DNA from: Ulva prolifera | Taxonomy: Eukaryota > Chlorophyta > Ulvophyceae > Ulvales > Ulvaceae | Direction of reading: 5' to 3' | Length of the DNA: 64,000 nucleotides | NCBI GenBank assembly: GCA_023078555.1 | Contig: CM041198.1 | Span: forward strand, 4,201,354-4,265,353 | Part shown: one piece after another, positions 4,819 to 53,640 of the stretch | How the letters are laid out: the number at the start of each line of letters is the position of its first letter | How positions within the stretch are numbered: position 1 is the first letter of the stretch | Translations under genes and position numbers: made by a program | Notes under the pieces: generated by a model | Told to the model about the DNA's origin: nothing | Seen by the model: the letters and a program-made list of their open reading frames with translations, nothing else | Database searches by the model: none

Positions 4819-6576
4819 CTTCCACACCCGTTTCAGTTGGGCCATTTCAAATGGGCCATTTGCCTCGAATCGAAAGGGAAGCATGCACAGCGAGACATAA
4901 ATTTTCTGGGTGAATGGAGTTTCTTGGGCTTGTATATAGATTCAGCGCGGCCGCAAGGGGTTCGCACAACCCCCTCCTGGCTCCCGATGGAGGAGCACAC
5001 ACACGAGTGCACAGTGAATAACCTGTGTCCGCTGCCGGCCACGAACTACCATCCTGGGGTGTGGATCAGGCCTTGAAGGGGCGGATTGATTCGTGTCACA
5101 ATGGCGTCGAATGAGTGCTGTGCTGCCATCATTTGGTTGACCAATCGTTGAGTCTTGTAGATCAGAGCTTGCGAGCGTTGCATGCTTGGCCGATTCAAAC
5201 GCTGAGAGCGTATAACACATCGAGTGTGTTGCAGTCGTTGTCTTGTAATTTTCTGAGGGTGTAATGCTAACCGTTTGTGTCAGCCAGCGGGCGGGCTCGT
5301 CGGGTTGCTGTTGGGTGTGACATGCCCGATGGGTGGGCCATGCCATGGCTACAGCTCTTTTGTGCCGCTGCAGCAACAGAGTCTGGCACGAAATCGAGCA
5401 TGTGTCTAGTGCGAAAACGTGTAAATTGGAGCTTCCTCTGCATCGTCACCATCTGTGTCAAGCTCGATTGTTGCCATACATGGATGGACTTGCTGTGCAT
5501 GGTTGTGCATTACGGTGGGGTGGCTGGCTGGCAGCTTACGTGCTTTTGTCAGTTACGGATCAACAGAGACCGAGGTCGAGAGACTCAATGAGACCGATCC
5601 AATTTCGCTTCTGACACTGTGCACCCAGGTCCTCGTCTGTTCCACAGGTGTACATTGATGTACTTCCGGTTGTAAAGTCCATGCCTGTCTATTGTCTAAT
5701 CCCGCCACTCAGCATTGGTGTTATACATTCTAATGCCCATTGACATACTATGTACAAGTATTCATGCGCGACGACGCCTCCTCAAAATCTCGTCATTCCT
5801 GGACACTGGGAAGGCAGATGCATCACACCCTTTAGGACACTGTAACACATGTGTTCGCACAGGCACATCAGTTTCTTGAGGTTGCAGCTGAATTGTGCCT
5901 CTCAAGACAGATGCCAACCCATTCGAAACACCACCAACAGAACAGCACTGCGCTGTTGCAATCGCCATGGAACCTGTCACCAGGTCTCCATGGGGCAGAC
6001 CCGACTTGAAAAGATAGACTCTATGTACCAGGCACATGCGCCTCGGGTCGTGCTTCATGGAAGAAGGGCTATTACTGGACAGTTCGTATCGTAATGTTGC
6101 GTTCTGCTGAGGCGTCCTTCCCGTTGTGCATCTTTGGTGGACCTTTAGAGCGCTTGACAGATCTGATGTAGTTCATCTATGCAATAGAAAGTATTAATGA
6201 CGGCTGATTTGAAGTTCCAGAGACATGATGTCAAGTTCAGGGACACGCGAATTTATCATGGCCTGTCTGCTGTCGATTCGGTATGCTGCAGCGCTCTGCT
6301 GCTTATCACCTGGGCCACTTGAAACCACTACCGACGATGAGGATTGTGGGTCATAGATATTTGATGGGTCAGGGATCTATCTTCGGGAACGGCGTCGTTC
6401 GAAGGGAGCCAAGCCGAATTGGCTTGTAAATCGCGGACCGCACGCGTCATCTGCAGATGCTGCATCAACGAGCAATGTACGCACCGTGATGTACATCGCG
6501 CTAATCAGCGACTGTCTGATTTGGATGTGCTGTTAGCTTACAAATTCTCGTACGTGCCAGTGTGTTTGAGCAGGGC
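4819..6576. other. Intergenic / 5' region of the coiled-coil gene
   Basis: No supported exon. A possible short first exon of the next gene is 6225-6280: two adjacent ATGs, 18 codons, then a GTATGC donor. It cannot be joined in frame to the likely downstream exon, so it is not called. The remainder holds only short overlapping frames without family resemblance. Confidence 0.5.
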
Positions 6577-35935: not shown

Positions 35936-38900
35936 ATGACCGTAGAGTATTCCGACCCGCTCGAAGCGAAGTGGTACTGTGATGATGGCTTGCGTACGTC
36001 CTTAGACGGTGCGCTCTCTGTCACAGTCTTTGAACGACGTGCATGGTTGATGACAGGGCGATCGCTCACAATGCAATTCACGGCCCGACAATTCAAAGGA
36101 GCAATCACCTGCAGGCCTTCAGCTTCCTCTGAGGAATGAGCTGGTCGCATTGAGCGACAGAGACGCTGCTGCGCTTGAAGCGGCATACAGGTGCGCCACG
36201 CTCAGCTGCCAATTTCATACAGGAAACATATTCTCCTAGATGCTACACATTTGCTGCTTGATTTTGGTGACACGCGATCTAGCGGTGTTACTGTCGTCAA
36301 GTGTGGAGCTAAATCACGGTCACCCATGCGGATGCGCAGGCAAGCCAAGCACGCTCTGTGCCGCACGCATAAAAAAAAGGACGAGCGTAAACTTAATTCG
36401 CTGACTGTGGTGTCCAACTGCTTTCCCTTCCCTGTGTTCTACCAGCACTGCATCGGTGATCGATGTTGCCCATGCCCGTCGCTATGACCGTCCGTGGTGC
36501 TGCACAGGAAACACCCAGAACAGTACATTGCCGAGTGGAGGCGTAGTCATGATGAGCGTCTGGCCCACCTGACGGAAGCGGACCAGTCCGGCAAGTTTGC
36601 CTCAGTCCAGGCCGACCTGGAGCCTCAAGGGCCGATTCTCAGGGATGGCTTCTTCGAGGCGAACGTCCGGGCATGTCACATGTATCCCATCTACTGGAAG
36701 GATCAGCCCAGGGCGCTCTTGCGAGGCACATGGTTTGTCGAAGCTGGTGGCCTTAAGCGAGCGCTGTTGCCTCTGCCATGTGCAGCAGCTCTCGTGCTGG
36801 AGCATGCCTGGCAAAGCGGGTGCGTTCCCCATCTGCGCGCTGCGACGGCAGCGTCACCCAGGAAATGCCGAACAGCATGGCATATCTACTTGTCAGGCGC
36901 ATGTGGCATGACAGATGCGCCTGGCACCACTCCCACAATGCAGGGGCATCACCAGCATGTTGACCTCCCTTAGACCATGCGCACACGGCAGCATGTTGAA
37001 CAAGCCAGCTCAGAATATCCGACACGCCCAGCTCTGATGTAAACTACAAGCATCTGATGTTTGTAGAGGCTTATGGCGTCCTCTCCTCGCACTGAGGCAT
37101 CACGAGGTGGTCATTGGGCACAGCTGTGGTGGCCAGTTCTGTTGAACATCGGACGTTATGAATGCAGCATGTGGAACAACAAAGCATGGTAGCAGTAACA
37201 AGGTGGTCATGTCCCTGGCCAGCACAGCATCCTGTGAATAGGTCTGGAGTGCATGGTGGTGTCAAAGAATTGCAGTGCCAATGCAGTGTCACCCACGTCG
37301 GTGTCCATGACAAGACACAGCACGTTGTGTTGCGACGTGGTGGGCTATCCTGGGACTCCTTTGGGACAGCCCTTCAGGTTACAAAGGCTTGGTTCTGTCA
37401 TGCCAGAGCTAGTCGCGCAGGTCCATTTGCAGCCAATGTGTGGAATCAAAGCTATGTCTTGTGTGGTCAGAGTGTCGCCAGAGTCTCGTCAGACCAAAGA
37501 GCAGGCCCCATCTACTGATCCATGATGCCACCGAGGTTAGTCCAGTCATGGTCGTGTGAGTGTTGTCCTGTTTCTCAGCTGTGTTGGGAAAAACTTCGGG
37601 ACAGGTTATTTTGTCCCGATACCCGTGAATTTGGCAGCTGTGAATAAGGATCTCTGGGCGGCGTCATGCAGCCCAATGGTAGGCAGACCTCACAGTCACC
37701 ACTCAATCATTGTGCAATCAGGCACTGTGGCACAATCGGGCACTATGGATTATGCTGTGCCATGTGCAGCATGTGGTGAGGACAATCACGGCATAGCGAC
37801 GGTGTGTGAAAATCGCCATGCTTGGAGTTCCCAGCACATGTGGGTGTGCATGCCACCCCGCAAAGCACGGCAAAGCACAGTCAGCATGCTGTGTCTCTGT
37901 AACAAAGCACACCTATGCAAGCGGCAACGCATGCCGGCCATTGCAAACCAGGAGCGCTCCCTGATCAGCAATGCTGTGCTGCCACCTTGCTGTGTGGCCA
38001 CCGGCGCCAGCCCCTGTCTCGAAGCTGTAGCTCCTTTATGTATCGGAGCGTGGCAATCCAGTGCTTCTTGTCGGGGGCACCAGCGCATCGGCATGCGTGC
38101 CCGCTGCGGCAGCACCGGCGTGAGCCCTGCCTTGATGGCAGCGCCTCCGTGCACTGCTGCTGCCGTCACAGGCCGTGCCGTGTCTTTGCACCAGGACCCA
38201 CGCATGCAGGCGCACGGCGAGGCCGCCCAGCCCGGCCGGCACGCACTGCGCCAATGCAGTGATATGACTGCTGTACCACGGATTCCCACACGCCCGCCTT
38301 TTCCACAGGTTTCCACCGTCGTACAGGTCCTCCTTATCGACCGATGTGTCCTTGGCGGCTGGCACGGTGTGCCCAAGGCGGTGGTCGCGCGCAGTGTTCT
38401 GTGCAGCACACCCCCGTGAATTTCCGCTCATGCGCCGAGGGCCACGCGCACGTGTGCACCGGCGGAGTGAAGCTGCCAGCTCCGCACCACACTCACATGC
38501 ATGCACTCTCACCCAGGGCAATGCGCCCCTGCTTCACGAGGACCACGCCGGAGAGGCAGCCAGCGCTGTGGCAAATCCATGCACCCCCCCACCAGAAGTG
38601 GAACACTGTGCACGCACCCCCTCAGTGTCACTCCCCACACAACGGCGCCCAACACTATGCATCCCGCGAACACCGGCTCCTCAACCAACGCACTCCCGCA
38701 CACACTCGACCATCCCCGCCACACATACAGTCGCCCCCGCGTGGCAGGCGCTGCGGCGTGCTGCTTGCTACGGATCGTGGTCAATCTCTGCATGCTGCTG
38801 CAGGGTGTTTGACCCCGGCCAGGCGCCGCACACGCGGCAGCCGGAGGGCATCGTCGCCGCCAGGGTGCACCTCGGCGACGCCCTGACGCACCCCTACGAC

Positions 38901-41900
38901 GCCCTCTTCTGCTCCCGCGGCACGGCCTACCTGTGCGCCGGCAGCCCGGCCGCGCTCGCCAACCCCCGGTACGCGGTGCGCAGCGGCCAGCCGGGCATGC
39001 GCCTGCGGCGTGGCTACAAGCGCGCCGCCGACGGCGCGGCGCCGCTGGCGTCGGGGGGCGTGTGCGGCTGCTTCTCGCAGGTGAGGCTCCGTCTGCGTGT
39101 CTGTGCATGTGACAGTTGCCGCTTCTGTGGGATCCCGCTGTTGTCGCTGGGGAATATGTTGGCTCCGTGGTGGGCGAGGCTCAGCACTGCCGTGCGAAGG
39201 ATGCAGCTTGTTCTTGGGCGTGTAGCTGCGCCACCGCAACAGCTGTCGCGTGTGCGCTTCATGCTGTGTGGGCGCTTGTCCCAGGTGCTGCCGGGGGGGG
39301 GGGGGTACATGCCATCACACGCGTGGGTGTGCAGCCTTGGAGTCTGGCAGCTGAAGGCTGCCTTTGCTTGCATGCTTCTGCTGCTGCTAGGCCAGCCTGT
39401 CGGTATGATCGTTGCAATGGACCTGCCCTGTGACAGCGGCAGCTGTTTCGGTGGATGGCTGTGAGTGGCTGGAGTGCTATGTCTGTGGCCGTGCATGTGA
39501 TGCCCTGATGTCCCCTCGCACAATCATTGCAGCATCGCATCTCACGCTGACATGTGTGATTATGTGGAGTGTAGTGTGCTCTTGGGTCAAGTCTAATTCA
39601 AGTCACACGATTTCTTGTTTTGTTTTGTCGGCTGTGTGCACATGGTGCCACATGCTGCCCAGAGTTGCAAGTGCCACATGCTGCCACATGCTGCCACATG
39701 CTGCCCCGAGTTGCAAGTGGCATTTGAGGGGCGTTTGGTGGTGCAAGTCCAGGCCTGGTGCAAGCCGCCTGCCTGGGAACAGGCAGCTGCTCCCACCACA
39801 GCAAGTGCCCCACAGCCTGGCAGACTGTCATCATCTCTCGTGATTATGGTGTTTCTGGTGTGTCTGGACGTCATGTGTTGCTGTGAAAGACTGCTGTGGC
39901 TGGGTCGATGATTATTGTACTCACCATGTATCTCTGGCATGCCACAGATGTCTGAAGGTATGTGTTGTGACGTTGTGCAGTGGCCACATCATGGACCTGC
40001 CACAAGTGCCATGAACCAGCTGCGCTAGACCATTGCTGCTTTTGACCACTGCTGCTCCATCATGACATGCCATGACACATCAACACAGCTGCATAACTGC
40101 TTTAGTTTTATTTTGAATTACTGCTAAGGGTGCAATCCTATCTGATACCAGATGGTTGTGTACAGTGATGAGATTGTATCTCTTCAGTCTGCCCTGTGAG
40201 AACGTGATGATGCAGCTTCATCTCTCATGCCGCTGCACCTGGCGAGCATCTTGCGCGTGCATCATACGTTGCACTTTTGAACGCTGCTCTGGTCTATGAC
40301 CGTGCGCTGCATGCTGTGAACCATTCACCGTGTGCATGCCCCGTGCGCAAGCTGCGACACGCGGGCTGCCTCCATGCATGCGCCTGTGCCTCAACCTTGC
40401 GCCCACACTCGGCTGTCCAGAAGACTGTGAAGAGATCACGCTCGGCGCTTGGGGTGGCATGCATGCGACTGTCGCCTGATGCGTAAGCTCACACCTGTAG
40501 ACACCGATCCGCGAGCTTGAGTCTGCACACGGCTTCCAGGTCAAGCGTCATTTATCGCCGCCGGCGCAATCACACATCTTTTACACTCAGGCGTGCGTGC
40601 TGTCCTGACGCTGCTGCCCTCATGCACGCTGCTCCGGCGATGAACAGCTTTCTCTTGCACTGTACATGCACATGGCGGCCGCGAGTGGATTGGGGGTCTC
40701 GACCGGAAGACCTCCATGAGTCCACGGGACTCGTCACGACACCACAATGACCACTAGCTTGTCGAGCATTACGACATCCACCCTTGCATGGCTATGTAAT
40801 GAAGCATACGGATACATCCGTTGCAGTCTGCAGTCTGGTTGCGGGTGTGTGCTTACCGCAGTTAGCTGCTTGAGCGCAGTTCAATTTGTCACCCTATGAA
40901 GTATGAAATACAGGCAGGGGCAGTGCTGACGCGGCGCCCCTCACTTTGTCGCTCAAGCTGCACAGTCCATTCCCTCTTTCAGTACACACATTTCGCTGAA
41001 AAGTATTGAGGACGACTCAGCCGTGGCATGCAGGGCGTGGACGCGACCTCCGACAGCGGCCCGCTGCTCGCCGGGCGCCACGCGGACAGCCGCGCCGCGC
41101 TGCCGCCGCTGCCGCAGCCGCCGCCGCGGCACGTCGTGCTGCTCGTGTGTGGCGTGAGTGACCAGCGCGCGGACGTCGAGGACCTCGGGGAGGCCGCGCA
41201 GGCGCTGCAGGCGCGTTTGAACGCCCTTGTGGACACCATCCCCGACGAGGTCGGCCGCGGCATGCTGCACGTGCTCCCAGTGGAGTGGCGCCGCAACGCC
41301 AGCCTCGAGGTCCGCCCCGCTCCACGTGCATGCATACGTTCTGCGGATGTGCATCGGCACCCTTCGCACAAGGAAAAAAGGGCGAGACTGTCTGCCGTCT
41401 TGATGTGGCTCTTGCATTGGTGTGTGCATGTCAGCTTATGTGGCGGAGTTCATCTGGTGTGCAGGCGGACTACATCGGGCAACGCGAACTCACCCATGGG
41501 GCGCGCAAGGTTCGTGAGATCGCGCAGAGGACATGCATGGAGGCCGCGTGGTACCTCGCGCCGGCGCGTGCGCAGCTCCTCATCGACAGCGTCGCCGCCA
41601 CCGCCAACGCCACCGTGCTGCGCTTCATCCGCCGCAACCCCGCCTTCTGCGGCGGCATCTCCGTCGTCGCGCACGGCATCGGCTCCGCGATGGCCTGCGA
41701 CCTCCTCGCACACCAGCCCGCGGCACCGCGCTCCGCGCTCGGCCGCGTGCTCGCCGCGCGCGGCGGCTCTTTCGCAGCCGCGGCGGCAACGGCGGCTGCG
41801 CCGCCGCCGCGGCCGCCCCGGCCGCCGTCGGCGCGGCGCGGCAGCGGCAGCGCGCGCAGCGGCCGCGCCGCGACGCGCATCGCCGCGGTCGCGGCGCTGC

Positions 41901-44900
41901 AGGACTACAACGCGCAGCGCTTCGGCGAGTCGATATACAGCGGCGGGCTGTCCGGCTCCGGCGCATCCTCCCCGCAGAAGCGGCTGCCTGCGGCGGATGC
42001 GGAGGAGGTGTCAACTCCGAAGCGCGCCGCCGCGGAGCGTGACGGCCACCCGTCCAATGCCCCGGAGACCCCCGCGATCTCCCCTCCGGAAGTGGACGCT
42101 GCTGACGCTGCCCCAATTGGCGAGGCAGGGCCCAAGTCCCGCCGGATCCGCAGTGCAAACCCGAACCGTCAGCCCGGTGCGCCGTCAGGGCACCCTGCAG
42201 TCCCCGTTCTACCCTTCCAAGTACGGCAAGACTCGGCGATGGGGCACCCCGCGCACGCAAACCCTGGCGAGGTTCCGAGCTCTGGCAGCTCAAGTGCGAG
42301 GCCGTCGCTCGTCGGGGAGTGCTCCCTGCGACCGTCCAGCCTCGGGACTACGAACGACGGGATCTCAGTCAGCGGCTGGGGCGCAGATGGAAGTGTGTCG
42401 GTTGACTTGAACCCTGAGAACCAGGCCGCTGCAATCACCCTGCGCCTGCCGTCAGACCAGTCGAGCGCCGAGATGCCCCCGCCAGAGGGGCCTCCCACCG
42501 ACTCGGCGGGAGGTGGCGGGGGATTCATGTGGCTGTCGCCGCGGCAGCCGCGCACGAACTGGCGGCGCAGCCGCATCCCGAGCCATGGCGAGAGCCGCGC
42601 CGGCAGCAGCGGCAGTGCCGGCGGCTACTACACAGCACACAGCACGAGCGCCGGCGGTAGTGTTGGGGGCAGCCTCGGAGGCAGCCTCTGGGGGAGCGTT
42701 GGGCAGCCGCTCGGCGAGGGCCGGGAGCGCTTCGAGGAGATGCCCCCGCACGGCTGGCGATCCCACTCGGCGATCGAACCCTACAGCGCCGCAGACGGCG
42801 ACACCGCCGTGAACCCTAGCAGCATCAGCGAGACCGGCACGCTAAGCCGCGCGGCCGCGGCGGCCGCGGCGGAGGCTGCCTCCGCCCCTGACACCGACGG
42901 GGAGCTGTTTCACGATCCGATGGTCAGCTTCCCGACCCCGCCTCGTCACAAGTCGCACCCGCGGCCGGCCCCCGCGTCTCCAGAGTCTCCTCTACTGCCT
43001 CAGTACCGGTCAGTGGAGGCGGCGCAGCGGCCGCGCCGCACGCACAAGGAGGACGTGCGCGCGCACGACGCGACCGTGACCGCCGCGGCAGCGGACAGCG
43101 AGGAGGACACGAGCTCCCGGGAGCTGGAGGTGCTCGGCAGCCTGGCGCTGCGATCGTGGGCCGGTCGCGAGACAAGCGTCGCGACGCAGAGCACGCGCGG
43201 CGGCCCCGGCGGCGGCGACCAGCCGGGGTCGCCCCAGCACGCCACAACATCGACGACCACCGCCGGGACGATTTCAACGACCGCTGGGACAACGGCCGTC
43301 GAGCTGCGGTCTGATGCCGCGCCATTCTGGAGCGGCAGCGGGTGGAACAGCGCGATGTCCTCTGGAGGCGCGCGGCTAAACAGCGCGGCTGGGGGCGCAG
43401 CCGCCTCGCAGTGGATGCCGATGCATGACGTCGCGGACTTCCAGCGGTCCCGGGCGGAGGTTGTGGAGGTGCAGGGCAGCCGAAGCGACGCGGCTGTGGG
43501 TCGGCCGGGGGGCGAGATCGAACGCCCCGCCGGGGCGCCCTTTTCGTTTGCGCGAGGTTTGGATTCCCCCGCTCGCGGCAGGCCCCCCGCGAGTGCGACG
43601 GCGGAAAGCGACTTGCAGCGCTCCCGCAGCAGCCGCGGGGAGGCGTTGCGGCCGCCGGCGACGGCTGCACCAGCTCCTCCAGCGGGGCCGCGGCCGCCGC
43701 CGCTGGCCCCGCTGTCGCCGGTGTCCCCGAATGTTGCCGCAGTGTCGGCGGTTCGGCGGCGCGGGGCGGAGCCGCAGGTTGCGGAGCGGTACCAGCTGGG
43801 TGATCTGCAGGTGCGCACGACGGCCTTGCGCTGAGGACTGAGCTCCGGGATCAGGCCAGTGTGCTTAGGCTGCTTCCTTGTCTTGCTGTTGGCACTGTGC
43901 ATGTACACAATGGCAGTCGTGCCAGAGGTTACATCGGCCACTGCTGGCCGCGGCATGTCACACAGATGCTTGATCCTCCGACAAAACAGTGTCCCCTTGT
44001 TCTCAACAGCGTGTTTGTTCCTATGGGTGTCTCATGGTCACAGAATTCAGAAGTTGGTACCACAGCCTAGTATCGACCAAACCCAACACGCGCGAGCATC
44101 CGGGCCGTGGTGCAGGAGATCGAGGAGGTGCCTGGCACGCCGACCGACGGCAGCTTCCTGCCATCCTCCCCCGGCTGCGCCGTGGCAATCGACGGCCTTG
44201 CGGCGCGCCGTATCGCGCTCGCCCGCTCCCTCTGGCCTGGAGCACAGCTGCAGGCCCTCGACGCCACCCACCTCTCGGCCGAAGAGGCCGCCCCAACCTC
44301 CCTTGCTTACCCGGCACGCCTCTCACACTTCCATACGGCAGAGGGCCGCTGTCTTGTCGCTCCAGGCAGAGCATGCGTAATGCATCCCGGCAATTCGTCT
44401 CATGCTCACGCATTTGCTGAGCTGCGTTTTGCCCGAGCACAGCACAGGTACCCTGAGAGTTCACATCGTTGTCTGCGCTGACACTCCTCGTCTTCCCAGC
44501 ACACAGCATGGTGTGAACGCGCGGTCGTGGCGCTGTGCAGGAGCTGTGCTTTGAGGTGGACAACTTCATCATGCTGGGCTCCCCAGTCGGCATGTTCAAC
44601 GCGCTCAAGGGCGTCAACCCAGGCCGTGGCCGCACCCTGGGTTCGCGCAATGCGTCACCTCTCTTCCCCCACAGCCCCACCGCCGGGCTGCCCCTGTGCA
44701 AGTGCGCGCGACCCCTGTCTGCACCACGTGCGCACGACACTCGCACTTGCTAGCAGTGCATGGCGAGAAACACCTCCGCAGGCCATCACATCCCTTAGCC
44801 CCTGTTCTGCTCGATGTCAATGGCGCAATCCCATGCACGCGTTATTAATGACGTGTCGGCCGTTGTCTGCAGGAGATGGTTCAACGTGTGGCACCAGCAG

Positions 44901-47900
44901 GATGCTCTGGCGTATAGGGTGGAGCCGCTGCTCCGCCGCAGCAGCCACAAGCCGCTGCGCTTGCCGCGAAACAAAGGCTCAGCCGCACCCCGCCCCCGGC
45001 CACGCGCACACAGCCCCGCGCCCCGGCCCCCCACAACCCCCCCGGCCACGGAGGTATGTTGCGCCATCCTCCGCACGTTCCCATGCTGCTGCACACTCAT
45101 TGCATTCCGGGGGGGGACCTCCCAGATGCCAGAACACGAGTAGCTCTGCCACGGATGTCTCTGACTCGAAGGGGTCAGTCAGAAGGGTAGGATCGTGTCA
45201 CGTGTTCAGGGACGGACGGCGTCGCGCGCGGAAACCCTGGTTGATGCGCTCCTGGGCGCCCCGGTTCTGCCGACGCCCCCTGGAAGTCCAACAGCGCTCG
45301 TGGAGCGGCCGCTGCCGTTCGCCGCGGCCGTCACGGCCATGGTCGCTGGAGACGGCCGCGAGAGCAACCTCAGCACGCCCACCTCCCGGCGCCGCTCCGC
45401 CGCGGAGCCCGCGTTGACCAGCCCCTCCGGCTCGCTGTCCCCGGCATCGCGGTCCCCTTTCGCGATGCGGCCCCGCGCCGGGAGCGCCCCCGGCTCGCGC
45501 GCCAGCAGCGCACATGGCTCTCGCTCGCCGAGTGCCGGGCGGACGCTCTCCGGCCGCCGCTTGCAAGGCGGCCTGCCGCCGAGCGGCCGTGGCAGCGCGG
45601 TCAGCTCGACGTCGTCGTTCACAGACGCGCCGTCCGCACGCTCCGCGCGTGGCGCTTCGCTGCCGCCGCTGCCCGCGGCGGATGCCGCCGCGCTCCGCGG
45701 CCGGCCGCGGCTGCGCGGGCAGCACCCGCGGAGCTTCGCACCGCGGTCCTCCCCTGCGCGGCCGCTCGCCGGCCGCCGGCGGCCCGGCTCGGCGCGGGCG
45801 GCTGTCGGCCGCAGCCGCCTCGCCGCACAGGCGGACCGCAGCGACTCCGTCACGCCGGACCCCCGTGTCCGCGCGGAAGCTCAGCTCATCCTCCAGGAGC
45901 AGCTGCGGAAGCACCTCGGACTTGTGCAAGAGGAGAGCATCGAGGACGCCCTTCCACTCGGCGCAGGGTTCCGCACTCCCGGCAGCTCCCCGGGCGGCGC
46001 GGCACTCACCCCCGGCCGCTTGCCGCCGATGGACCCTGACGCGGTCAACGAGGCCGTAAGACGGCTCGCGCTTATCGGCGGCGCGCCGCCTGTGGATATC
46101 GACACCGCGCAGTTCGCCCAGCGCGCACAGCTCGCCTCTGCCGGCACGTCTCCAAGCCCTCGGCACGAAGTCGACACCCGAGAGTCCAGCCCCCGCGCGG
46201 CGCTGGACTTCACGCGGGAGCGGCTCTCCCACGGCACTGTCAGCGCGCCCTGCACGCTCGAGTCGGTGCCGCTGATCGACCCGGCGGAAGCGCTCACGGC
46301 ACTTGCGCAGCGCAACAACGCATCGCGTCACGAGGGTGCGGCCTCCGTCATCGACATGCATGGGGACGGCCTTTCGCCTAGCATGCATGAGACAGCCACG
46401 ACCGCCACGGCGACGATGGACGACGAATTCGGCACCGGCAGCGCGACAGGGGCCCTCGCGGGCGCAATAGTGGCTGCGGCGGTGCGCGCATCGGACCCGC
46501 AGGGTGCCTCGTACGACCTCGAGACAGGGTCCGGCCCGTCGACGGACTTGTCTCTTCACCACGCGCACCACGTCAGCGGCAGCGACGCAGAGGCGGATGC
46601 TGCTGTAGCCGCGGCAGACGCGGTGCTGCAGCGCGAGGAGGAGGCCGTTCGGGCGGAGGTGGAGGGGATGTCTCCGCCCGCCGCGGCCGCTGCAGGGGGG
46701 ATTTCTGACTCTGCAACGTCGACGTCGCTGATCCTGCCGCCACCCCGTGCGTGCTCCCCCTGTTACCGGTGCCTGTGTTTTTTTGGGAGTTGAGTGTGAG
46801 GCACTGCTGCTGTTGTGGCTGCTGCGCTACATCACCCCGCTGATCCGGTTCGCCCTGGTCAGTTTTCTCGAAGGCGCCGTAATGTTCCATCGCGCGGACT
46901 GGATTGTGCAGGGTTTCCTCTTGGGACCGCTGCAAGCCAGGACCCACCGGCGACGACCCTTGAAGAGGAGGCAGAGGCCCTGCAGGCGGGGGAGACCGCC
47001 ATGGAGGCTCCCACGTCGACCCCGCGCGAGGTGCGCCCGGCCCTCTTGGTGCACCCCCCTCGGCCTCTACCGCCGGCGGTGGCGGCAGCATCTGCCGCCT
47101 CGGACCTCGACTCCGCACGGTCGGACCCGCCGTTCTTCGCGGTGAACCAATCCGACTGCGTGCCGCTGTGGGAGGGCCCTCCCACCTCCCGCTCCCACTC
47201 CTCCTCTAGGTCGTCCGGCCTCAGTGGACTCGTCCCGCCCCTCCTCCTCCAGCGTGTCCGCCGCCTCTCCCCCCGCCTTTCCCCCCGGCCCCCCTCCGGT
47301 TCCTCCTCCTCTTACCCCTCCCGCCTGCCCCGCCCCCGCTCCGGCCCCCAACGCGCCGGCAACGGACCCCTCTCTCGCGGCCCGAGCGGCCCGGTCAGCC
47401 TGCGCAGCAGCGGCGCCCTCAGCGCGCGCAGCACGCGCAGCGCGGTCACGCCGTCAAGCTTCGGCGACCGCGGCCCCTCCAGTGCCACCATGGACACCTG
47501 TGCGTCGTCCTTCAGCCACGGCGGCGGCTGTGGCGCTGCGATCTTGGTGTCTCCGCGCTCCTCCGCACCATCTTCAATGTCATCGACAGCGTCGAGTGGC
47601 CTCTTCAAGATCGGCCCACGGCACGTGTGGCTGCCACAGCCGGGATCGGCGGCCGGTGTTGTGGGGGGACGTGGGCTGCCTCTGCCACGTGAAGAGGCTC
47701 AAATCTGGGTGTCGCAAGGGCGCCGCCGCAGCGGCCGACGTGCGGCCCCCTCTAACCTCGCCTTTTTTTTTTTGTCGTCCAAGTCGTGCCTGTCGCTACC
47801 CGGCCTGCTGTCTCTCCATCTGATCGGCTGCACATGTGGCCACCCCGCCCGCACTTCTTCGACATATTTCGCTATGGCCTGCCTTTGCCGTATGTTTCAT

Positions 47901-50020
47901 CGAGCATGGGCTGGGCTGGGGTGCTTTATGTATTCATTTATGCATGATTACTTGCCAATGCTGCTGCCAAGCCTGATCTCATGGAAATACAGGCTGAGCA
48001 ACTGTTGTCCCAAAGGGGCCCCCCTATCTAGAGATAGGGAGGGGGGGCCCACAGTTCATCGCAACAGGCAACCTGAGGTCAGACATCGTGTACAGGTGAG
48101 CAGCGGCTCCTGATGGGCTCCCTGTCGGACAGCTTCTCCGGCGACCTCCCGACCGCCGCCGAGCTGCTCGGCCCGCAGCCCCTCCCCGACCCCCCCGGCG
48201 GCGGCACCGGCCCCCAGTACACCTACGAAGCCGCTATCCCACCGCTGCCGCCGATCTCCGAGAAGCACTCTGCACGGACTGTGTACGCTGACTCTGTCGT
48301 AAGCGCACGCGATAGCGCACGCGAGAGCGCTCGCGCAGACCTAGCCGCGCTGCCCCCGGCTCCGGTCACCGGAACCCTAGAGACCGCGGCGGCCTACACC
48401 GACCCCTTCGACGGCCTCCATGAGTCCTCCCCGACAAAGCCCCTGCCCAGCCTCGGCTCGGCACGCCGCGGCCGCATGCTTGCCGGGGAGTCCGCCGCGG
48501 GGTCGGGTGCGCGTGAGAGCAGCCCAGCCGCAGTGTCCCTCTCTCCTCCGGGTCCGGGCCCATCCCGCCGCGGCGATCACGATGAACAATCCGGAGCTCT
48601 GGAAGGAGAAGAGGCGGGGTCAGACTCGCCAGGGTCTCCGCCGCCGATCAAGCGGCCGCCAGGGTACTACGCAGAGATCATGCAGCGGGGGCGTGCGCCG
48701 GTGCGGTGGCCACCTGAGGACACGGTGGAGGTGTTTCGCGCCGACGAGGCGGAGCTCCTGGACGGCCACTCGCAGCTCTCGGCAGACCTCTCAGGGTCCT
48801 CTGACAGCTCCGGCGACGAGGGTGGGTGGCTGGAGCCACAGCAAGGCGGCATGGTGGGTACGGGGGACGCACCGCTGCAGATCTGGCAGCGACACACGCT
48901 CGAGGACGTTCCGGAGGATTCCGCGGAGCTTGGGCACGGCGCGTCACATGGGGCGACGTCCACTGCGCCACCGTCGGGGGGGGACCGGCCGGTCGGGGAG
49001 GCGATCACTGGGGCGATGTCATACCAGGGGCCAGAGCTGAGGCTGAGCGGCGTGTCTTCACGGGTGTCCGCACACGTCGGGCTTCGCAGCGTGCGGCCAA
49101 CCTCGGCAGCGCCGGACCCGCGCCGCCGCCGCGCGCTGCGGCACAAGTCGCCGCTCCGGCGGCTGACGTTCTGCCTGTGCGCCCCCACCGACAGCGGCTT
49201 TGAGGCGTTCTCGGACGAGCTGCCGCCGCCAACCGGCGCGCCCCAGCTCGGCGCGCTGGCTCCGGCGCCGCGTGCCCTCCTCGCTGCACCCGAACCCGTC
49301 GTGAGCTGGGCAGGCGGAAGGCAATCCCTCAGCCACGCTCCCCGGGCAGTCGCCGTGCCGCCGCTCCGGCTACTGGAGCCGCGGTCGGCCGTCGTGCCGC
49401 TAGCTACATCTCAGCAGGCTCACATCGGCGTTGAAGTGGCGCTACAACGTGTGCCGATGCGGCATTCGGTCGACGTCGCGGCGTTGCGACGCGTGCCGAG
49501 CGGCGGCCGCCCCGGCTCCCCGGACACCGACCCCTTCATGCGTACAAGCAGCGGCAGCTCCGGCGTCAGTGGCAGCCCGGCCGGCGATCTCTTCGGCTCG
49601 CCCCTGCACGCGCCAGGAGTCGCAATGGAGGCGCGAGGCAGGTCCACAGCCCCTCGTGCCGCGCCCGTGCGGCCGGGGCCGGTGTCCGTGCCAGGGCCGA
49701 TCGCCGAGGCGACCGTGCCGGCGCAAATGCATGCAGAGAGTGCCAGTCTGCAGTCGGTGCGGATCGGGGTGGTGGCGGAGGCGCCGCCGCGTGGTGCTGC
49801 GCTCGCGCGTGGCCGCCTGGACTTTGAGCTGCGCCGTGACGTGCTGGATGGCAAGTTCACGCGGAGGCTGCGGCCACAGGTGGACTACTGGGGGAATAAG
49901 GACCTCGCCCTGATGATCTGCCGGGCGGTGCTGGGACGAGATGTCATGGACGGGTGTGAGTATGAGAGTGCGGCGGAGGTGGCCGCAGGTGGCGTGATGT
50001 TCCCAGACCCCTGTGCGTGA
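35936..50020 (+). CDS. Giant DDHD-domain protein (PA-PLA1 / SEC23IP family), probably catalytically inactive
   Basis: Exons: 35936-35993, 36115-36190, 36508-36819, 38804-39080, 41034-41309, 41465-43810, 44116 to about 44376, 44541-44701, 44873-45053, 45210-46746, 46912 to about 47650, and 48104-50020. About 2,700 aa; family members are usually 700-1,000. The N-terminus has the family pattern (LSDRDAAALEAAY, MYPIYWKDQPRALLRGTWFV, MRLRRGYKRAA). Next come RHVVLLVCGVSD and ISVVAHGIGSAMACDLLAH, which align with the VHGIG and GHSLGS lipase motifs but have Cys280 and Gly404 in place of His and the nucleophile Ser. The DDHD domain follows in pieces: CFEVDNFIMLGSPVGMF, RWFNVWHQQDALAYRVEPLL, and far downstream RLDFELR with YWGNKDLALMI. 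Ser/Pro/Ala/Gly-rich insertions of hundreds of residues separate them. Family members hydrolyse phosphatidic acid or act at ER exit sites. Ends of the seventh and eleventh exons are uncertain. Confidence 0.82.
39646..39720. repeat. Short tandem repeat, 10-bp unit TGCCACATGC
   Basis: About four to five copies of TGCCACATGC/TG lie in the intron between exons four and five of the DDHD gene. They are interrupted and flanked by two copies of GAGTTGCAAGTG. Confidence 0.85.
48015..48050. repeat. Imperfect inverted repeat just upstream of the last DDHD exon
   Basis: GGGCCCCCCTATC and GATAGGGAGGGGGGGCCC pair around a four-base TAGA centre. In RNA this would be a stable hairpin in the last intron, about 50 bases before the acceptor at 48103. 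Confidence 0.85.
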
Positions 50021-50188
50021 CGAGGCTCCGCTGTGGACGGCGTGGGCTGTGCGTGCGCCCGGTGGGCATGCGAAATAATGTCTGGGTCTGTGGTTGCAGT
50101 GATGTTGTGGAAACGGCAGGCGTGTTTGGAGCGGCCTTGTTGTTCTGGGCTGTGGGGAGTTAGCCAGTGCTCGGCGGCGCCGGCACTG

Positions 50189-50235
<47 letters not shown>

Positions 50236-51394: not shown

Positions 51395-52008
51395 CCCAAG
51401 CTTTGAGTCTTTTGGGGATCCAGGAACCCTGTCTCTTTTTTTTAACATTAGCCCTTCGACGCCCGACTTGAAGGGAGTGTCAGTAGATCAAGATACATGG
51501 TCTCCTGGCGCCTGGAATCCGCGGGCAATACTGTTGCTTTGTGACTGTGAAAGGCTGGTGCCTTGAGGTTGAGGCATGTTTTGCCTGTTTGTGCCAATAG
51601 TGGGGTCCAAATTGACCAATTAAGCCTCAATAAGAAGCTACTGGGTACTCATGGCCGCCATCACTGCAGCCAATGCACTTGAATGTCAATTTCAGGCTGT
51701 TGTGGGGCTGCCTGGAGCAACGCCGGTTCTGCCATGTGCAGCCTCTGCCAAATCCACCATCGTATGTGTCTCATGTCTTCACGATCAGTACTTCCATCAC
51801 CTCGCAGCCCTAAAATCCGTAATCCCACGACTTCGACGGTCATGCTGCCTGATCACTCATTCGTTTCGCGCCAAGTTGCATCCGGACCTCCGGAATTCAA
51901 TTAACATATCAGTTGTTTCCGTGAAATTCATTGCCGCTGATCTCGCGTCGTGCTGAATATAAGTACGCTCAGTACCTTCTAGCTCAGTTTCGGCGGGCGG
52001 CATGATGC
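51395..52008. other. Spacer between the SINE and the hAT remnant
   Basis: No gene is supported. An open frame at 51651-51956 may include decayed N-terminal hAT sequence, but no motif is convincing. No terminal inverted repeat of the transposon was identified. Confidence 0.4.
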
Positions 52009-53640
52009 ATGGTGCTGACGCGAAAAGAGCGATTGTGGCAGCAACCGACTGAACCCACAGCGAAAGAGGTGCTAGGGAAGCAGCTGCACACTTTGTGTGA
52101 CTCTACCAAAAGAGCTGGTATCAGCAGCTTGCTGTCACACAATTATGTATCGGTCACAATGGATGGGTGGAAAAAACGAGGCAGAACCGGGAGCACCACT
52201 AATCACTGTCAATATGTTGCTGTCTGACGGCGGGGCTGGATTCTGGAAGGTGTGAGCGTTGTTCTCAAATCATACTACTGCCGTATGTGTATAGCGCTGT
52301 TGCAAGACATGTGAGCAGACTGGCCACAAGCCCAAGCTGCTACATACATACAGGTCATCAACGCCGGGGCACCTATCAAGGACTCTAGCAGGATCATGCA
52401 ACAGCAGCGGCCGCTGAGCTGAAAGATGTCAGCAGTGGCACAAGGGTGATAGGATTCGTGATGGACTCGGCGTCTGCAACACGAAAGGCATGTGAGATGA
52501 TGCAAGGGGAGTGTGAGGAGCAGGCGACAGCGGCTGCTTCCCTTAGCGGGGCTGGCAAAGAGTCCGCCTTGGGGCCTCTGCTACTGCTGCAGCGTGCTTC
52601 TCACACTCTGCCACTCCTCGTCGAGGACGTCACTGCTCGTTTTGCTTGGGTCACAGACGTGTACGACAGTGCCAACACGATATCCGAGACAGTGAATAGC
52701 AGTGTATCTGCTAGCAGATCTGGGATCAGTACGTTAGGGCATGTTGGAGTCTGGATGTGCCACCAACGGCCATCCAAATGAATGAAGAGACTCACTTTGA
52801 ATCTTGTCACTGGTGCTTTGGTCTTCCACAGGGCAAAAGTGGTTGCGCCTGTGAAAGCTATGTGCATGTCTGCCGAGTTTCAAGAGATGTCTAGTACGTC
52901 TATTCCCGCGCCCAACTTGATTGACAGTGACTTTGTCTGATGAGGAGAATTTCAGATAGTGAGGTGCCCTTGTCCAGGTGCTGATGGATCCGATCGTGGA
53001 TCAGATGCACAGAGTAGAATCACATGAACCTTGACTGTCAACAATGCTTTCCGCTGTGAACAGCTTGTTGGAGCATGCTTGTGAATTCAGCGAGAATTAC
53101 CCCGCTCTAACCTGCACGAGAGATGTGGCAAACATTGCTGACATTTGCTCGTCTGACGATGAGTCGGGCTTGGTTGAAAGTCTTGTGTCCGTGTTCGAAA
53201 GGCGTTTGCATGTCTTTTACCTCACAGACTGCATGTGTGCTGCACACATGCTAGATCCGGCCGCCTTTGTGACGCCGAACGAGGGTGTGTCTTACAACCT
53301 ACCTTGGCAAAAGATCACCGATGGTGGGATCACAAGGTTCACGGACGAAGAAGAGAGAATGGGTGGTGAATCAGTTCTTGAGCAAATTGCAGACACTGCG
53401 GTCCCAAGGAACGTCTTTAACGAACAAAATGGATCAGCTGAATGCTAGGAAGTGTGTGGTCTCAGTTCAAGCACTTGTGCATAGGAGAGATCCATGGTTG
53501 AGTTTTCTGTCAAGAAACTTCCCAGAGCTATCTGTGGTTGCTGAGAAACTTCTCTCCATGCATGCCACAGCTTGTGCATCGGACAGGAACCTGAGCTAGT
53601 TTGGCTGGTTGTACGATACATCGCGCAGCTGATTGCAGGT
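52009..53640 (+). pseudogene. Decayed hAT-family transposase (DUF659 type)
   Basis: Fragments in order match a hAT transposase. PTAKEVLGKQLHTLCDSTKR then YVSVTMDGWKKRGR (52.0-52.2 kb) matches the DUF659 start. VIGFVMDSASATRKACEMM (52.45 kb) matches the VVxDNAxNxxxA strand. HTLPLLVEDVTARF (52.6 kb) matches the CAAHCLNLLLxDI region. FERRLHVFYLTDCMCAAHML followed by DPAAF (53.2 kb) matches the late catalytic region, and HATACASDRNLS / FGWLYDT (53.57 kb) matches the C-terminal dimerisation motif (S-x-ER-x-WS-x-FG). The pieces lie in different frames. In-frame stops interrupt the dimerisation motif (TAG at 53597-53599 and a TGA downstream). It is therefore an inactive copy unless unrecognised introns remove the stops. 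Confidence 0.75.

Follow-up and report, generated by a model that had tools for sequence, protein, structure and literature searches.

A DDHD-type phospholipase homologue of Ulva prolifera altered at three presumed active-site positions is probably a pseudo-lipase

Plant SGR2 is an active intracellular phospholipase A1 (iPLA1), in which an N-terminal WWE-like region is followed by a GxSxG hydrolase and a DDHD domain. The same order is supported by fly PAPLA1 in the accessible part of PMC5395975. Active lipases carry the DDHD domain, and so does the Nir/RdgB lipid-transfer group, where its action is called still unsettled in the available portion of PMC7990853. That portion reports that neither DDHD1 nor KIAA0725p is active without D, D and H, describes the DDHD quartet as a predicted divalent-metal site and not a catalytic triad, and presents the PITPNM/Nir proteins as known for lipid transfer. 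It further states that DDHD together with SAM binds PI4P, and that the p125 DDHD domain binds weakly acidic lipids. SEC23IP/p125 (iPLA1-beta) is a family member for which the accessible text of PMC9031518 gives no detected phospholipase activity, and its GxSxG is reported as kept in the portions available of PMC10689277 and PMC9031518.

The stretch of DNA analysed here (the window; 64,000 nucleotides) corresponds to C3:4201354-4265353, + strand, C3 being contig CM041198.1 of a genome of 88.9 Mb in 44 contigs. This genome has 38 matches to the chlorophyll a/b-binding family, and the best of them matches 644 distinct PDB chains, of which 60 were listed and most bear the name of chlorophyll a-b binding proteins, in keeping with a photosynthetic eukaryote with a green-type plastid, probably a green alga. 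It carries, on the + strand from about 36.5 to 50.02 kb, a gene homologous to the DDHD/intracellular phospholipases A1, hereafter W. The gene model was built from the genomic sequence, and its 5′ end and the borders near 36.8, 43.8-44.5 and 45.05-48.1 kb are provisional. The parts of W are as follows, with tblastn values referring to its paralogue P, which is described below.

36500..36835 (borders approximate), + strand: N-terminal exon with the YPIYWKDQPRALLRGTWFVEAGG region; tblastn against P 1.0e-28, 43% identity
38804..39080, + strand: second conserved N-terminal exon (VFDPGQ...LRRGYKR...GCFSQ), with AG acceptor and GT donor; tblastn against P 1.2e-7, 32% identity
41034..41309, + strand: lipase-core exon with VCGVSD (VHGIGQ in P) and LPVEWRRNASLE, from translation and alignment with P
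41465..43810, + strand: exon whose nucleophile-elbow region extends to 41719, with a stop-free low-complexity insert of 697 codons behind it
44209..44325, + strand: conserved block RIALARSLWPG..., exon ends provisional; weak tblastn match to P (E 0.012, 45% identity)
44541..44701, + strand: start of the DDHD domain, ELCFEVDNFIMLGSPVGMFNALKGVNPG; Pfam DDHD 3.5e-8
44873..45053, + strand: DDHD domain, RWFNVWHQQDALAYRVEPLL; Pfam DDHD 7.2e-7
45168..46740, + strand: middle insert, an open low-complexity stretch of 524 codons where a DDHD-splitting insert is expected; transcript membership assumed from the open frame
48161..50020, + strand: last exon with the C-terminal part of DDHD; start provisional, frame open from 48077, stop codon at 50018-50020

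Both core exons (41034-41309 and 41465-43810) are in open frame, each preceded by AG and followed by GT; the first translates to ...RHVVLLVCGVSDQ...LPVEWRRNASLE and positions 41465-41740 of the second to ...GGISVVAHGIGSAMACDLLAHQP.... The YPIYWKDQPRALLRGTWFVEAGG region is presumably the WWE-like part of intracellular PLA1s. The Pfam WWE_2 profile matches the N-terminal region of W at E 0.12-0.21, below the cut-off, with no match for P, and genome-wide it gave no match anywhere, controls included. The joined core of W matches Pfam DDHD (PF02862) at 1.4e-25, with 91.4 bits vs 122.3 for P and a cut-off of 28.3; both exons of the first DDHD half exceed the cut-off, and the last exon covers profile positions 212-257 at E 0.0038, below the curated cut-off. 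Scanned with Pfam at a threshold of E 0.1, the long inserts, three in all, revealed no lipid-binding, partner or SAM domain, and the middle one had no hit of any kind. Matches of the single exons 41034-41309 and 41465-41764 to DUF2267, TIR_3, DUF3208 and CsgF are unrelated and below the cut-off, and were set aside as chance.

Several features lie beside or across the gene. A GT-repeat run, in frame as VCVCVCV, is found at about 50185-50235, shortly past the stop codon of W. Open pieces on the + strand at 52006-53445 are taken here to resemble the remains of a hAT-type transposase; a Pfam scan of two of them returned nothing down to E 0.1. An open frame of 542 codons at 45201-46826 on the − strand runs antisense to the 542-codon frame of the middle insert, which GC-rich codon usage probably explains.

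The intact second DDHD paralogue whose possible presence the original prediction had raised does exist. This gene, P, lies at approximately C3:11855043-11860555 (11.855-11.8606 Mb) on the − strand. A Pfam DDHD profile search of the genome returned three matches at two loci, W and P, so that P is the sole other DDHD locus found in the 88.9 Mb by a search that scores best candidates only. Searches with the nucleophile exon, the RGTWF region and the C-terminal piece of P each led back to W and P, at a single place in either gene, and nowhere else. The motifs of P read VHGIGQ, AYSLGS, FHPFDPVAYR, RLDFQL, RAHFCYW and KHEDVAL, and they are intact at all positions lost in W. Identity between the two genes by tblastn block is 43% in the N-terminal exon, 32% in the second, 48% in the nucleophile exon (5.8e-36, a joint E for two stretches) and 45% in the C-terminal piece (W 49814-49954, 4e-12), and 137 of 282 residues are identical over the joined core (49% protein identity). 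The conserved blocks follow the same order, and a long open insert follows DLLAHQP in both; the intron at 44702-44872 of W is absent from P. Two splice borders, that of the intron which follows LE in the first core exon and the acceptor preceding ELCF, are common to both genes and point to a duplication at the DNA level and not to a processed copy. An Abhydrolase_8 match to the joined core of P (0.002, below the cut-off), which W does not have, was given no weight. Upstream of P, within C3:11860001-11868000 on the − strand, is an open stretch of 257 codons that presumably resembles WD40 repeats.

Set against P, W has changed at three positions of the presumed active site, which fall in three exons spread over 8.7 kb, the last lying 8 kb downstream of the first two.

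41148..41150, + strand: first loss, TGT (Cys) where P has the His of VHGIG; read from the codon
41675..41677, + strand: second loss, GGC (Gly) where P has the nucleophile Ser; read from the codon and the alignment
49877..49879, + strand: third loss, CAG (Gln) where P has the presumed DDHD His; RPQVDYW in W vs RAHFCYW in P

The first two had been described already by the original prediction, and its codons are those read here: TGT within VCGVSD (GTG TGT GGC GTG AGT GAC, 41145-41162) and GGC within AHGIGS (GCG CAC GGC ATC GGC TCC, 41669-41686). The VHGIG motif is presumably the oxyanion-hole strand. AHGIG (41669-41683) stands where P has AYSLG, so that a GxSxG (or AxSxG) nucleophile motif is not present at the elbow of W. 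The change had been presented as GHSLGS becoming AHGIGS; the replacement of Ser by Gly stands, but the initial Ala is no sign of loss, since the elbow of P also begins with Ala (AYSLGS) and Ser to Gly is therefore the informative change. Both of the two independent losses claimed were recovered; the count was too low, the His to Gln change at 49877-49879 being a third.

The third position depends on how the DDHD quartet is placed. Motif order was used, taking the D of HPxD, the D of RLDF/RIDY, the H of AHFxYW/FHASYW and the D of HED/STD, by which P reads D, D, H, D and W reads D (WHQQD), D (RLDF), Q (RPQVDYW) and D (GNKD). All three Asp residues of the quartet, the first of them encoded by GAT at 44901-44903, are thus retained in W, as is the His of WHQQD. 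We infer this assignment, because the PITPNM stretches that carry the last three motifs are not significant by themselves; the placement of the DDHD His rests on the significant alignment of W with P (4e-12) together with motif order.

Could the losses be errors, the wrong exon having been aligned or the bases being wrong? The gene model rests on the assembled sequence, which leaves some opening for this, but the nucleophile exon of W is 48% identical to P across the motif itself, the searches with P pieces each found a single place in W and a single place in P, and errors would be needed at three sites in three exons. We find this explanation scarcely credible. The original prediction had regarded the alignment as secure because the surrounding family residues PVEWRRNASLE and SAMACDLLAH are intact; both are present in W, and the identity of the nucleophile exon and the above-cut-off DDHD matches of the downstream exons bear out that judgement.

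Loss of catalysis in W is well supported, as judged from sequence. It might be argued that W is still an enzyme with another nucleophile or other chemistry, be it the Cys of VCGVSD or a scheme based on Asp; it does retain the three DDHD Asp and the WHQQD His, and the pocket may survive. This is very improbable: Ser and the presumed DDHD His are both gone, the nucleophile has been replaced by Gly as in PITPNM1, and D, D and H are given as essential in DDHD1 and KIAA0725p in the accessible portion of PMC7990853.

Whether W is maintained was approached through its frames, its composition and its conserved columns. The inserts of 697, 524 and 618 codons contain zero in-frame stops, whereas 2000 random sequences per insert, matched in dinucleotide frequencies, had means of 8.3, 4.7 and 9.7 stops and were stop-free in 0, 14 and 0 of 2000 cases. 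Since openness itself guided the choice of inserts, and the antisense strand of the middle one is open as well, the first and last weigh most. GC3 is 0.85 over 558 codons in eight conserved blocks (range 0.66-0.98), the total GC of the five assumed introns being 0.56-0.59. Single blocks have 0.98 (38805), 0.95 (41034) and 0.91 (41465), but GC3 falls to 0.66 for the first block and to 0.74 for 44209-44325. A drift calculation, which considered substitutions only and no indels, at ten rates between 0.02 and 1.0 per site, with a transition bias of 2, near intron-like composition and ancestral codons AGC, CAC and CAC, gave a joint chance of at most about 2.5e-4 that the three catalytic codons change while no stop arises in the 553 conserved codons; including the inserts (2325 codons) it is at most 8e-6. 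Across 130 columns compared with PITPNM1, W is identical to P in 35 of the 50 where P equals PITPNM1, vs 36 of 80 elsewhere (one-sided Fisher p 0.004); the 15 of 50 common columns at which W has changed fit relaxed constraint as well. W matches PITPNM1 in 40 of the 130 columns and P in 50, which suggests that constraint on W has changed or is weaker.

These results bear on the alternative that W is a dying gene, in which catalysis was lost, selection ended and the frame is open merely because the loss is recent. W has diverged somewhat further than P from PITPNM1, and its Pfam DDHD score is the lower of the two. Three catalytic changes without a stop in 553 conserved codons or in three inserts are nonetheless hard to reconcile with drift on the calculation above, and coding-type GC3 persists in most blocks. 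We therefore favour, on these properties of the sequence, a maintained coding gene rather than a decaying one and regard decay as unlikely, although the drift test leaves room for a pseudoenzyme that died very recently. A non-enzymatic role preserved over time, and not a recent knock-out, is what the original prediction had proposed; the loss of catalysis now extends to three sites, and preservation is upheld indirectly by the open frames, GC3 and the drift calculation.

W is thus probably a non-hydrolytic pseudo-lipase that still makes protein. Put more fully, we think it likely that W is an intact protein-coding iPLA1 paralogue in which hydrolysis has been lost and the alpha/beta-hydrolase and DDHD body kept for a non-catalytic role, most likely as an acidic-lipid-binding scaffold or sensor, or as a modulator of P. 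In falling order of likelihood, W would hydrolyse no lipid; it would be under selection for a non-catalytic job; at an internal membrane, its DDHD body may bind acidic phospholipids, namely phosphatidic acid and phosphoinositides; and it might regulate, or compete with, its active-looking sister P. By analogy with Nir2/PITPNM1 and SEC23IP, it could act as a trafficking scaffold or lipid sensor, with the long low-complexity inserts possibly serving as partner-recruiting tails. A more far-reaching version is put forward tentatively, as a possibility we would not yet bet on: W may be a long-kept algal pseudo-phospholipase that arrived on its own at the Gly-for-Ser state of Nir2 and then passed from DDHD to DDQD, becoming a lipid sensor or partner that controls P, in which case this one replacement would have turned DDHD proteins into non-enzymes on at least two occasions.

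The original prediction had named ER exit-site scaffolds as the model for such a role. SEC23IP belongs to the same broad family and is without detected PLA1 activity in the accessible text of PMC9031518, but its GxSxG is retained according to the available part of PMC10689277, whereas W has lost the Ser, and no SAM match is found at W or P. A SAM_1 search of the genome gave two matches, on contigs C5 and C1, none of them beside the DDHD of W or P. That W is specifically an ER exit-site scaffold like SEC23IP is therefore quite unlikely.

Searches outside the genome added little. Scans with the W/P alignment yielded 135 pattern matches in viral contigs and 57 in a collection of non-eukaryote genome contigs, none confirmed in either, and the P DDHD piece had 8 in viral contigs, again none confirmed. 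Against the genome contigs the same piece had one confirmed locus of 163 matches (a Brevundimonas MAG, 19 residues, 5001-5057); six ORFs of at least 100 aa are listed nearby, but the match falls within none of them and was attributed to chance. In the PDB, three glutamyl endopeptidase matches to the core of W were weak (E 0.28-0.53) and not used, and the C-terminal piece of P alone matched no chain at E 10. As a separate observation on PDB searching, the two best chains among the matches listed for a light-harvesting protein at C5:1088359-1088862 are long LHCI (9vfj) chains of 620 and 1048 residues; they align with it over 2 and 6 stretches, and chains of ordinary size rank below them. Among the titles listed by a literature search none concerned an algal DDHD pseudo-lipase, which is no measure of absence from print.

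Comparison with the active iPLA1s DDHD1, DDHD2 and SGR2 reveals the same order of WWE-like region (putative in W), hydrolase and DDHD; W differs from them in having neither a nucleophile Ser nor the presumed His of the DDHD quartet. The best PDB matches to the cores of both W and P are two PITPNM1/Nir2 chains, with PITPNM3 matching P, but not W, at E 1. The DDHD region of PITPNM1/Nir2 and PITPNM3 (PDB 9c37, 9jyx, 9c38) aligns with W from the nucleophile exon onward. At the nucleophile column PITPNM1 has Gly, as does W, whereas P has Ser; the Gly state is therefore already known in the DDHD superfamily. To our knowledge PITPNM proteins have no hydrolase activity. In weak stretches the PITPNM chains have FHASYW where W has RPQVDYW, the motif string of PITPNM3 being RIDY, FHASYW and STDV. 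W nevertheless does not look PITPNM-like, as its N-terminal RGTWF exon is common to P and LNS2 has no match at W. LNS2 (PF08235) has only two matches in the genome, both at C3:4095647-4096567, which places them upstream of W by about 141 kb. The PITP domain (PF02121) has no match in the genome and none in controls either. The LNS2 locus, on the + strand, may be a lipin; the first of its two pieces scores 3.4e-37.

With one paralogue intact and the other triply disarmed, a cell would have a natural separation of the catalytic from the lipid-binding or scaffolding role. W shares with PITPNM1 the residue at the nucleophile position, and the Gly state is now seen in a phospholipase-type gene. The value of the finding hinges on orthologues and expression, and is modest unless the state proves old and kept. 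As far as sequence comparison goes, PITPNM1/Nir2 is a nearer precedent than SEC23IP for the replaced nucleophile of W, and W is a modest further example of an already known pseudoenzyme phenomenon.
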